From the NCBI GenBank assembly GCA_021774625.1, contig JAJFIV010000025.1, positions 1 to 64,000 on the forward strand: 64,000 bases of DNA. Direction: 5' to 3'. Below the pieces are notes generated by a model. It did no database searches. It was not told the DNA's origin and saw nothing but the letters and a program-made list of their open reading frames with translations. A program made the translations under genes and the position numbers. This stretch comes from Alphaproteobacteria bacterium. GTDB taxonomy: Bacteria > Pseudomonadota > Alphaproteobacteria > Sphingomonadales > JAKSBY01. Positions 1,178-57,812 of the stretch are shown piece after piece; position 1 is the first letter of the stretch; each line of letters opens with the position of its first letter.

Positions 1178-2092
1178 ATGCGTATTGGTATTTTATCACG
1201 AAATCCACGACTTTACTCCACTAAACGGTTGGCAGATGCCGCAAAAGAGCGCGGCCACGACGTCAAAGTCGTTGATGTCCTTAAATGTTATATGAACATC
1301 ACCGCAAACAAGCCAACCGTCTATTACAAGCCCAGAGACGAAAAGGAAAAGCTGAATTTCGATGCTGTTATCCCGCGCATCGGAGCGTCGGTGACCGCGT
1401 ATGGCACGGCGGTCCTGCGACAATTCGAAGTGGGCGGTGTTTACTCCGTCAATGAATCTGTTGGCATCGCCCGGTCACGCGATAAGCTGCGCGCGCACCA
1501 GCTTCTGGCACGAAAGGGTGTCGGAATGCCGCTCACGGGGTATGCCCATGCTGCCAATGCGACCGAAGATCTGATCGAATTTGTCGGCGGCGCACCCTTA
1601 ATCGTGAAAGTCATGGAAAGCACCCATGGCGCGGGTGTTGTGCTTGCGGAAACATCCAAGGCGGCAGAGAGTGTGATCAACGCGTTTCGCGGCCTTAACG
1701 CTAATATTCTTGTCCAGGAGTTTGTCAAGGAAGCCGGCGGTGCCGATATCCGCTGTTTCATCATTGGCGACAAAGTTATTGCTGCCATGCAGCGCCAGGC
1801 GAAGGAGGGGGAATACCGGTCCAACCTGCATATGGGCGGTACGGCCAGTATCGTAAAACTCAAACCGGATGAGCGGGCCATGGCGGTTCGCGCCGCAAAA
1901 GTTATCGGTCTTGATGTGGCCGGTGTTGATCTTATCCGCTCCGCACACGGACCGCAGGTGCTTGAAGTCAACTCATCGCCGGGACTTAAGGGTATCGAGG
2001 CGGCGACCGGTAAAGACGTGGCGGGTTCCATCATCAGATATATCGAGGAAGATTCGCAAAAGGGACCAAACCGGATGACGGGAAAAGGCTAG
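1178..2092 (+). CDS. rimK: RimK-family alpha-L-glutamate ligase
   Basis: This ATP-grasp ligase adds glutamate residues to a protein C-terminus, classically ribosomal protein S6. The 304-residue product starts [18 protein letters not shown], a standard RimK opening, so I chose ATG 1178 (AGGA eight bases upstream) rather than the in-frame ATG at 1130. The ATP-grasp glycine-rich loop [12 protein letters not shown] is near residue 150, and the metal-binding end motif [12 protein letters not shown] is near 270. No aspartyl protease or retropepsin-type partner lies next to it. Whether the target here is S6 cannot be told from sequence. Confidence 0.92.
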
Positions 2093-2267
2093 GGGAGCGT
2101 CGAAAAGCGAACGATGCTTTTGATGTCCATAAGCGCGTCATATTTCGCTGTGATTATGCAGCGATATGGAGTGAAAACATTGCCGCTAATCTGCTAATGT
2201 CGCAGATCAGGAGTCGGGCGATAAGGAAAACCGATGAGCATGCAGTTGAAACACGGGGAAAAACATC

Positions 2268-3143
2268 ATGGATGAAACAGCAACCGCTTTTGACTGGCGG
2301 ACAGCGATCAGTGAAACCTACCAGGATTTCGTCGCCCAGGTGATCAATCATGCACCGCAGCTCGTCGGTGCCATTGCCCTTCTGGTTCTCGGATGGATCA
2401 TTGCGCATTTCTCCCGGCTTGGAACCAAGAAACTCATTTACGGTTTGGACTCGCTCTTCAACCGGGTTTCCAAGCATGACGGCGTGCGCCGGGAAGGCCT
2501 TAAAAAATCCTATGCGCTCATTATCAGCCAGTTCGTATTTTGGGCGATTTTGATCTTCTTCATCGCCGCCAGTGCGAATTTGGTGGGCTGGAAACTCTTT
2601 ACCGGCTGGATGGAAAACATCGTCACGGTCCTGCCAAACCTGATCATGGGTCTTCTGATCATTCTGGCGGGTTTTCTCCTCGGCAATGCCGCACGTTCGG
2701 GAATTGCCCGGACCGCCGAGAGCACCGGGATAACACAAGGGGCCGTGCTGGCCCGCGTGGCGCAAATTATCATCCTCGTCAGTTCGGTCATTATCGGTAT
2801 CGAACTGATCGGCCTGAATGTGCAATTCCTCACAAGCATTATTGTGGTGGTGATTGGAATATTGCTGGCCGGGGCGGCCTTGGCATTCAGTCTTGGCGCG
2901 AAGACAATGGTCGCAAATTTCATCGGTGCGCAACAGACGCGCAAACACTGCCGGATCGGCGAGCATTTGAAGATTGACGGTTATGAAGGCGAAATTCTCG
3001 AGGTGACGCAGACTGCGGTTGTCCTCGATACGGAATATGGCCGGGCCGTCATTCCTTCCAAGCTGTTCCAGGAGCGGGTCAGCGAATTAAGGTCCGACGC
3101 CCCACCATCAAAGCCGAGCCGTGCCGTAAAATCCGCTAAGTAG
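2268..3143 (+). CDS. MscS-like mechanosensitive channel protein with conserved TM-helix repeats
   Basis: The 291-residue protein has about five hydrophobic helices (near 28-48, 83-105, 118-138, 158-178 and 181-205). A short soluble tail follows, with GEHLKIDGYEGEILEVT and a later RAVIPSKLFQERV stretch that match the beta domain of MscS channels. It lacks the larger C-terminal alpha/beta cage of E. coli MscS. It resembles the 'conserved TM helix' subgroup, likely a small osmotic or ion channel in the inner membrane. It begins an apparent operon with a CBS/MgtE-N protein 12 bp downstream and mgtE, suggesting shared ion homeostasis. Confidence 0.8.
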   Translation: MDETATAFDWRTAISETYQDFVAQVINHAPQLVGAIALLVLGWIIAHFSRLGTKKLIYGLDSLFNRVSKHDGVRREGLKKSYALIISQFVFWAILIFFIAASANLVGWKLFTGWMENIVTVLPNLIMGLLIILAGFLLGNAARSGIARTAESTGITQGAVLARVAQIIILVSSVIIGIELIGLNVQFLTSIIVVVIGILLAGAALAFSLGAKTMVANFIGAQQTRKHCRIGEHLKIDGYEGEILEVTQTAVVLDTEYGRAVIPSKLFQERVSELRSDAPPSKPSRAVKSAK

Positions 3144-27706: not shown

Positions 27707-29473
27707 GTGCCGGGGCAGAGCGAGAGAATTAACCCAGCCGAAATGTTAATGGAAGCCGCCCATGAAGCGATGGCGGGTTTTTTTGATTCCCAATCCCTTA
27801 TCGATAATCTTCCGATTAGCGTTTTTGTCTTTGAAGTAACCAAGGATGAACGTTACCGGCTTGCTCTCGTCAACCGGGTCTTCGAACGTTTATTCACGGT
27901 CAGACGTGAAGAACTGATTGGAAACTATCTCAGCGAAATCAAGATCGTCTCCACTGCCGATTATCTGAGGCCCCAGTTGGATCTTGCTTACCGGTCAAAA
28001 AAAGAAGTAGCTTTCGAGTGGCAGTTTTCCACACCGCCCAACGAACGTCACCTGACATGTCAGGTGATTCCGGTTTTAAACGGATCGTCCGACGTCCGCC
28101 ACATGCTGGGAATCATCACCGACCGGTCTGCGGAAAAGCGCGCCGAACGTCATGTGCTTTATAATGCGCTGCATGATTCGCTGACCGGCTTGCCCAACCG
28201 GGTCCTTTTTCATGATAAAATCGAGCAGACGACCGAAACGCAGAGTTTCACCGAGGGCCAACATTCCGCCGTGCTCGTTCTTAACGTGGACCGGTTTCAG
28301 CTGATCAACGAAAGCTTTGGCCATGTCGCCGGCGATGAGTTTTTAATCACACTGGCGGCAAAACTGAAAGCCTGTCTGCGCGGAAAAGACACCCTGGCAC
28401 GGCTGAACGGCGATGAATTCGCCATATTTCTGGAAAGCATCGAGACGATTGGCGACGCGGTCAAAGTCTCCGACCGCATTCATCAGGCTATCAAAAAACC
28501 CTATCTTTTAAGCGGGAATGAAATCCACTGCTCGGTCAGCATTGGCATTGCGAGCACTATCTCAAGCCTGCCGCATCCGGAAGACCTGCTGCGTGATGCC
28601 GATTTTGCCATGCATCAGGCAAAAACAGGCGGCAAGGCGCGAACTGAAATCTATCAGCGTCACACGCACCAACAGGCGCGGTCCCTTTTCCAGCTGGAGA
28701 CGGATCTGAGAAGGGCGCTGACAGACGAACAGCTAAAGCTCTATTACCAGCCAATTATCAATATGAAAACCGGCAAGCTTTCCGGGTTCGAAGCCCTGGC
28801 CCGTTGGCCGCATCCCGAACGGGGTTTTGTGCCGCCTTCGGAATTCATTCCCCTGGCGGAGGAAACGGGCATTATCGTCCCGCTGGGCCAATGGGCTTTG
28901 ATGAATGCCTGCCGGGATTTACAGATATGGCGGCGCTCCCATCCCGAGGCCAGCAACTTATCCATAAGCGTCAATGTTTCGGGTATTCAGTTCACCCGCA
29001 GCGATGTGGTGAAAGACATCAGCAGCGTTTTACAGGAAACGGGATTGCCCGCCGGCCGCCTGCGGATAGAATTGACGGAAAGCACCGTCATGGGCAATCC
29101 GGAAATTGCCGCCCAGATTCAAAAACGGCTAAAGGATTTGGGGGTCGAACTCGCCCTTGATGACTTCGGGACGGGATATTCCTCGCTCAGCTATCTGCAG
29201 CGTTTTCCTCTCGATTATCTGAAAGTGGACCGCGCCTTCGTCAATCACATCGACACCAATAAGGAAAACCGGGAAATCGCCGAGATTATCATCCTTCTCG
29301 CCAAGGCGCTCGATCTGAAGCTTGTTGCGGAAGGAATCGAAGAACCGGCCCAGCGCGATGTCATCAAATCTCTGGGCTGTGAATATGGCCAGGGATTTCT
29401 GTTTTCCAAAGCCGTTCCCTTCGATGAGGCCGATGAAATAGTCGCCGCCGATAAAGACTGGCTGAAAATCTAA
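27707..29473 (+). CDS. PAS-GGDEF-EAL protein, likely c-di-GMP phosphodiesterase
   Basis: The 588-residue cytosolic protein has a PAS domain (about 30-145), a GGDEF domain (about 160-310) and an EAL domain (about 325-580). The cyclase signature reads NGDEF instead of GGDEF, so synthesis is doubtful. The EAL domain has FEALARW, IELTES, DDFGTGYSSL and KVDRAF, with the residues for hydrolysis. It probably degrades c-di-GMP, the PAS and GGDEF modules being regulatory. GTG 27707 has AAGG upstream; ATG 27743 is an alternative. Confidence 0.9.
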   Translation: MPGQSERINPAEMLMEAAHEAMAGFFDSQSLIDNLPISVFVFEVTKDERYRLALVNRVFERLFTVRREELIGNYLSEIKIVSTADYLRPQLDLAYRSKKEVAFEWQFSTPPNERHLTCQVIPVLNGSSDVRHMLGIITDRSAEKRAERHVLYNALHDSLTGLPNRVLFHDKIEQTTETQSFTEGQHSAVLVLNVDRFQLINESFGHVAGDEFLITLAAKLKACLRGKDTLARLNGDEFAIFLESIETIGDAVKVSDRIHQAIKKPYLLSGNEIHCSVSIGIASTISSLPHPEDLLRDADFAMHQAKTGGKARTEIYQRHTHQQARSLFQLETDLRRALTDEQLKLYYQPIINMKTGKLSGFEALARWPHPERGFVPPSEFIPLAEETGIIVPLGQWALMNACRDLQIWRRSHPEASNLSISVNVSGIQFTRSDVVKDISSVLQETGLPAGRLRIELTESTVMGNPEIAAQIQKRLKDLGVELALDDFGTGYSSLSYLQRFPLDYLKVDRAFVNHIDTNKENREIAEIIILLAKALDLKLVAEGIEEPAQRDVIKSLGCEYGQGFLFSKAVPFDEADEIVAADKDWLKI

Positions 29474-57116: not shown

Positions 57117-57290
57117 TCGGCCTAAACATCCCGCAACATTTGATTTTTTTTCGAAAGAATAGAAGAAACTGAAATCCAGAAAAACAAAAAAGACTGAAGT
57201 GCAGCTTCAGAAAAACAAAATATCTATGCTTACCTAATTTTTACTTTTTTTGGTTATACAGGGATTATCTCTTGATCCGGGAATTGTAAA

Positions 57291-57812
57291 ATGGAAACCC
57301 AGGTCATCATAATTGATGACAATCAATACATGTCAAAGCTGATTTCCTATGCGCTGGAAGATGCCGGGTTTGATCGCCATACGCATTTTTCCTCCGTTGA
57401 AGCCTTTCGGAAGGCGGGATATGAGCCAAGGCCGGATTGCCTGATTATCGATCACAGCCTGCCCGGCCTGAGCGGAACGGAATTCACGCAGATGGTCAGG
57501 GACGGCGAAACCATTCTTCCCTGCGATATCACAATTATTCTTTGTATTTTTGACCCTGACGAAGATCTGGTCAAAAATGCCCGGGACGCCGGCGCAACGG
57601 AACTGTGCGCAAAACCGCTGTCACCGCTCAATCTTGTCAAGAAGCTGCAAATGGCCCTTGAACGCCCCCGCGATTTTGTCGATTGCGTCCGCTATAAAGG
57701 ACCGGACCGCCGCCGTAAGAAGCGGGCGCAGGCAGTGCCCGACCGGCGGGATAAAAAGAGGCCGATGAGTCAAAATGATATTGACGCCCTTCTGAAAGAA
57801 ACTGCAGATTAG
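57291..57812 (+). CDS. CheY-like receiver protein with a FliM-like C-terminal peptide
   Basis: The 173-residue protein has one receiver domain (about 1-125): VIIIDDN, phospho-Asp in CLIIDHSLPG near residue 55, and CAKPLSP with Lys near 105. A basic tail follows (GPDRRRKKRAQ), ending MSQNDIDALLKETAD. The SQxDIDALL peptide is the same kind as the N-terminus of FliM that binds phospho-CheY. It has no output domain. The TAG stop abuts the solo repeat end. Function is likely linked to motility, by inference. Confidence 0.85.
   Translation: METQVIIIDDNQYMSKLISYALEDAGFDRHTHFSSVEAFRKAGYEPRPDCLIIDHSLPGLSGTEFTQMVRDGETILPCDITIILCIFDPDEDLVKNARDAGATELCAKPLSPLNLVKKLQMALERPRDFVDCVRYKGPDRRRKKRAQAVPDRRDKKRPMSQNDIDALLKETAD

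Follow-up and report, generated by a model that had tools for sequence, protein, structure and literature searches.

FliM and CheZ both bind the alpha4-beta5-alpha5 face of CheY. For FliM the CheY-binding rule is LSQxEIDxLL (PMC5677366). In Caulobacter, the Cle proteins combine a CheY-like receiver with an arginine-rich region (ARR) at the C-terminus, which binds c-di-GMP; this region consists of a tandem [YF]xGP[DE][RK]R motif with an Arg before it and an Asp after it, and an arginine of helix alpha4 (R113 in CleD) contributes to the binding (PMC5677366). With c-di-GMP bound, Cle proteins bind the N-terminus of FliM and the phospho-switch is no longer needed. How c-di-GMP turns them on was left open, with remodelling of the FliM-binding face by the ARR being proposed (PMC5677366).

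A receiver that is very probably of the Cle type, with a FliM-like peptide placed after its ARR, is encoded in the 64,000-nucleotide window analysed here, which belongs to an alphaproteobacterial genome of 2.99 Mb in 35 contigs. After the receiver domain (residues 5-119) the translation continues with ...RDFVDCVRYKGPDRRRKKRAQAVPDRRDKKRPMSQNDIDALLKETAD, and the C-terminal end of the product is ...YKGPDRRRKKRAQAVPDRRDKKRPMSQNDIDALLKETAD. The features referred to below are as follows.

57291..57812, plus strand: coding sequence with ATG start, 173 residues, probable single-domain Cle-type receiver (ORF list and translation; Pfam Response_reg E 1.3e-14)
57303..57647, plus strand: receiver domain, residues 5-119 (Pfam; AlphaFold pLDDT 92-98; Foldseek CheY fold E 1e-7)
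57315..57320, plus strand: acidic pair Asp9-Asp10, CheY Asp12/Asp13 (alignment)
57450..57452, plus strand: phospho-acceptor Asp54, CheY Asp57 (alignment)
57546..57548, plus strand: Ile86 at the position of the CheY switch residue Thr87 (alignment; Thr in the CheY of the same genome)
57582..57584, plus strand: Arg98 of helix alpha4, counterpart of CleD R113 (Arg in 67 of 68 ARR receivers; role from PMC5677366)
57603..57605, plus strand: Leu105 at the position of CheY Tyr106 (alignment)
57669..57752, plus strand: ARR, residues 127-154, predicted c-di-GMP-binding module (motif of PMC5677366; ARR profile match to the CleD peptide 6SFT)
57693..57716, plus strand: first ARR repeat, YKGPDRRR (direct reading; GP-RR columns invariant)
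57729..57752, plus strand: second ARR repeat, degenerate, QAVPDRRD (direct reading; ARR alignment)
57765..57794, plus strand: FliM-like, putatively CheY-docking peptide MSQNDIDALL, residues 159-168 (direct reading; Q..ID kept in all 15 aligned ARR receivers that have the tail)
57771..57806, plus strand: predicted C-terminal helix, residues 161-172 (AlphaFold2; residues 161-170 at mean pLDDT 89)

Receiver, arginine-rich region and genome setting

Pfam recognizes only a Response_reg domain in the product and Foldseek returns the CheY fold, as befits a single CheY-like receiver. Shared with the known Cle proteins (CleD peptide 6SFT) are the succession of R-x-F-[IV] and a tandem [YF]xGP[DE][RK]R region, flanked here by Arg127 and Asp154, and the conserved arginine of helix alpha4, Arg98. 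The differences are the FliM-like peptide added after the ARR and the state of the repeats, of which the first is full (YKGPDRR) and the second degenerate (QAVPDRR), so that affinity for c-di-GMP could be weakened. When a profile of 22 ARRs of the family was compared with the PDB, the CleD ARR peptide 6SFT was the sole significant match (E 7.1e-8), and it was also the single match, at E 0.29, of the tail of the present protein alone. On the profile match the protein is very likely a Cle-type (CheY-like c-di-GMP effector) protein, and we infer that its ARR binds c-di-GMP. The sequence-only reading had noticed the basic stretch that precedes the peptide and had missed its identity as the c-di-GMP-binding ARR of the Cle family; with that identity, the likely signal shifts from phosphorylation to c-di-GMP.

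Canonical CheY and the present receiver have in common the fold and most of the phosphorylation residues, Lys108 included, and differ in that the latter adds the ARR and the FliM mimic and has Ile86 and Leu105 in place of the switch pair (Thr87, aromatic 106) of a phospho-activated CheY; in the canonical CheY of the same genome (L160:9538-9900) Thr87 and Tyr106 are both present. The Foldseek list includes 1VLZ, the CheY mutant T87I, the entry title of which refers to phosphorylation uncoupled from activation, and a natural isoleucine at this position is in keeping with a receiver governed by a signal other than phosphorylation. Control of Cle proteins is independent of the phospho-switch (PMC5677366). 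At the position of CheY Asp57 the alignment of 68 ARR receivers has Asn in 11 tail-less members and Glu in one that bears the tail.

The gene is flanked by one for a beta-lactamase-like hydrolase and by a convergent beta-propeller-like ORF (names read from translations), and the remark of the sequence-only reading that no flagellar gene is adjacent was right. Elsewhere in the genome are a FliM operon with a CheZ gene in the FliM region, a CheA-CheW-CheY-CheB-CheR cluster and nine matches to the GGDEF domain, gene names in the FliM region and the che cluster being read from translations except where checked by Pfam. These count in favour of the c-di-GMP-gated reading given below, and a further likeness to the known Cle proteins is that the host is an alphaproteobacterium in which flagellar genes occur together with enzymes of c-di-GMP.

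A GGDEF domain is also present inside the window, at 28166-28639, within a frame of 590 residues. Upstream of the receiver, at 57230-57244, is TTACCTAATTTTTAC, which is CtrA-box-like, with two mismatches to TTAA-N7-TTAA; the CheZ gene of the FliM region has a perfect TTAA-N7-TTAA upstream of it (L161:13607-13621). A gene for a ChpT-like histidine phosphotransferase (SRLCHDLVSPVGAISNGIEIL; L160:13662-14294) adjoins CheA in the chemotaxis cluster.

The FliM-like peptide and its spread

The C-terminal end of the receiver, PMSQNDIDALLKETAD, is a near-consensus FliM CheY-docking peptide, with MSQNDIDALL differing from LSQxEIDxLL by two conservative replacements, M for L and D for E, and what the sequence-only reading had said about this match was correct. 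The peptide shares with that of FliM a predicted helix and differs from it in place, being at the C-terminus of a receiver instead of the N-terminus of a switch protein. In a 30-residue tail of the same composition, chance would give Q.[DE]ID.L[LMFIV] (strict form) ~6e-6 times and Q..[IV]D..[LIVMF] (loose form) ~0.0015 times, and judged by its letters the peptide is not due to chance.

The whole genome was screened with a degenerate DNA pattern for Q.[DE]ID.., with nine matches against none for the reversed pattern used as control. Four are in relevant proteins (FliM, two CheZ and the present receiver), and the other five were judged incidental, two being in TonB-receptor-like proteins, one in a sugar-transferase-like protein and two in frames that look non-coding. 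The motif of the host FliM, VLDQDEIDSLL, is further from the FliM consensus than the peptide of the receiver. The two CheZ proteins (Pfam CheZ, E 3.4e-15 and 4.5e-10) end in SQDDIDALLASFD and TQADIDALFG; the likeness is that of a C-terminal docking helix with the same FliM-like letters, but CheZ is a phosphatase and the present protein a receiver. In the CheZ-family protein at L162:7675-8550 the C-terminal part has FliM-like peptides at three places, DQSEVDALM, NDDIDALM and TQADIDALF. A second ARR receiver of the genome (L002) has a looser form, GLHQDQIDAIV, after its ARR, and a third (L004) is without the peptide. Read in this way, the FliM-like peptide of one organism is on the CheY-binding proteins FliM and CheZ and on two ARR receivers. 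The peptide is conserved in a subset of homologs and is common to two CheY binders, so the proposal of the sequence-only reading, which had overlooked the ARR, that it docks on CheY or on the receiver that carries it was the right class of idea. The tail is probably a true docking signal for receivers of the CheY type.

In a set of 68 aligned ARR receivers, some of them collected by motif, the peptide is present in 15 and absent from 53, and since most ARR receivers are without it, Cle function as such does not depend on the tail. In the alignment of the 15 every member keeps Q..ID, while the stretch beyond the motif differs in both length and letters. It was the motif that led to the tail-bearing members from f128, another family of the class, and from the genome G062; the remaining homologs were collected independently of it, and Q..ID is at the same place in eight found by similarity alone, whose proteins are only 27-48% alike. 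These eight comprise one in the same family (G001, MSQGDIDALM), five in G009, G015 and G032, one in G014 and the paralog in the host genome, and the pattern search added G062 (LGQSDIDRLL) and three genomes of f128 (LTQNEIDSMM or LTQSEIDSMM). The Oceanicaulis members have NDQDAIDKLMA at the extreme C-terminus with a longer linker before it. A search for the same tail in other receivers had been suggested at the outset, with its lack of conservation named as ground for giving up the idea; the search has found it, and Q..ID is kept, though only in a subset of homologs.

The relatives are in records named Emcibacter, Sphingomonadales and other alphaproteobacterial bins, Sneathiella and Oceanicaulis. 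They were recovered only with an alignment-based search, a single-query scan of genome contigs having given no relative, and no close ortholog of the gene was found in the collections searched. Most matches of the wide pattern searches were chance-like; among the fetched loci only open ARR receiver frames were accepted, and the counts are lower bounds. The sequence QFSIEEHL of L072 was judged not to be FliM-like.

The spacing between the first aromatic residue of the ARR and the Gln of the peptide is 25 residues in 12 main-type homologs, 26 by direct count in the present protein and 42, or 17 longer than the main type, in the Oceanicaulis members. On a tree of the receiver columns alone the tail trait needs five changes, at least three of them forced by well-supported branches, against a shuffled mean of 13.7, and one group of ten members (support 89/88) is entirely tail-bearing. 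With three to five changes, the tree implies that the tail has been gained or lost repeatedly. The place of the present receiver in it is uncertain because its long branch pairs with another long branch.

Several tail-bearing ARR receivers are immediately followed by an Hpt-like gene (L002:1071-1478, minus strand; L048:2817-3239, plus; L049:1819-2196, plus; L013:1071-1526, minus) in which the position of the phospho-histidine is Tyr (AYRIKGAAGTLGWPL), while the Hpt-like partner in Sneathiella-like relatives keeps the His (AHEMKGQGGTFGYPL). The Tyr form is also beside some tail-less receivers, Pfam support for Hpt is weak and for L013 absent, and the pairing would be that of a pseudo-Hpt with a c-di-GMP-type receiver. 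An MCP signalling domain (Pfam E 1e-36) is encoded not far from the tail-bearing ARR receiver of G062 (L099:928-1614 and 2055-3083), the one chemotaxis neighbour seen for the family.

Putative docking of the peptide, in cis or in trans

AlphaFold2, run on the protein with 68 sequences, models the receiver with pLDDT above 92, then a linker at ~65 and the C-terminal helix, and the model of an f128 protein that is 23% identical has the same layout with its tail helix at pLDDT 82. The linker is at 62-69 across these two models, which support the tail being a defined helix in two lineages. A high pLDDT of the helix can be reached without docking; the Foldseek matches were to the receiver fold and did not place the tail helix. 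The pTM values (0.79-0.80), weighed as a stand-in for docking, were too ambiguous to use.

The reading to which we give a probability of about 0.45 is that of a Cle protein with a FliM mimic built into it, which engages a CheY-type receiver, in all likelihood the one to which it is attached, under the gating of c-di-GMP. The ARR would bind c-di-GMP, and the mimic would dock on the alpha4-beta5-alpha5 face of the receiver and compete there with FliM; c-di-GMP bound to the ARR, which is between receiver and peptide, would change whether the face is free for FliM at the motor. The protein would thus be a motor ligand gated by c-di-GMP that has its competitor attached to it. The peptide is some tens of residues behind the receiver, and a competitor tethered so as to occupy the FliM face, with the balance shifted by c-di-GMP, appears the most economical reading. 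The near-fixed spacing from ARR aromatic to Gln argues for a cis geometry, and the odds that docking is mainly in cis are perhaps just short of even; the Oceanicaulis spacing of 42 is something that a strict cis geometry would not predict. The degenerate second repeat, the long branch of the present receiver and the lack of a close ortholog in the collections searched also weigh against the gated reading. That the protein is a self-inhibited motor ligand switched by c-di-GMP, with the messenger site as the hinge, and gained or lost several times in Alphaproteobacteria, is put forward more tentatively.

The tail could instead act in trans and draw phosphorylated CheY, or another Cle, off FliM, a decoy role that is rather unlikely and in which c-di-GMP at the ARR would expose or hide the tail and the receiver itself need not bind FliM. 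A peptide nearer the consensus than that of the host FliM would suit a decoy, and the genome has a canonical CheY as well as two CheZ with the same peptide at their C-termini; with Ile and Leu at the switch positions the own face of the receiver may be a poor partner, and the longer Oceanicaulis linker suits a free tether, so that there is some room for capture of CheY in trans. However, a free tether is not expected to hold its length to the residue across lineages, and tethering favours cis docking unless the receiver has lost its face. The shortness of the linker, which favours cis, also makes it improbable that the tail docks on the receiver of the next molecule and gives head-to-tail oligomers or Cle co-assemblies at the motor. 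Two tail-bearing ARR receivers are near each other in G015 and likewise in G032, and the host genome has two, but the 2:1 stoichiometry of c-di-GMP with CleD was read as a dimer of the ligand and not of the protein (PMC5677366).

Absence from 53 of the 68 aligned ARR receivers would fit a tail that is a functionless remnant or a chance helix. This is nevertheless hard to reconcile with a Q..ID that is invariant in all 15 tail-bearing receivers (part motif-found) and is at near-fixed spacing in the eight homologs found by similarity, or with the low chance expectation even for the loose form, and is accordingly quite improbable. A phosphate sink, an earlier suggestion from the sequence, has gained no positive support and is very unlikely: the receiver would drain phosphoryl groups from the CheA pathway while the tail anchors it to CheY or CheY-linked complexes, and the acidic pair, Asp54 and Lys108 do remain, but Cle proteins work without the phospho-switch (PMC5677366), Ile occupies the Thr87 position and the family is variable at its phospho-residues.

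The C-terminal region of Cle proteins beyond the ARR has been described only as variable in length and sequence (PMC5677366), and no report of a FliM-like peptide on a receiver was found in the open-access papers searched. The order of receiver, ARR and FliM mimic, which by its sequences recurs in several alphaproteobacterial lineages, looks undescribed. To return to the tethered competitor, a FliM mimic whose spacing from the ARR hardly varies would be a built-in one and offers a testable model for the switching of Cle proteins by c-di-GMP. If that is true, the FliM peptide would have been reused within a single organism as a general CheY-docking tag, on its FliM and CheZ as well as on its Cle proteins.
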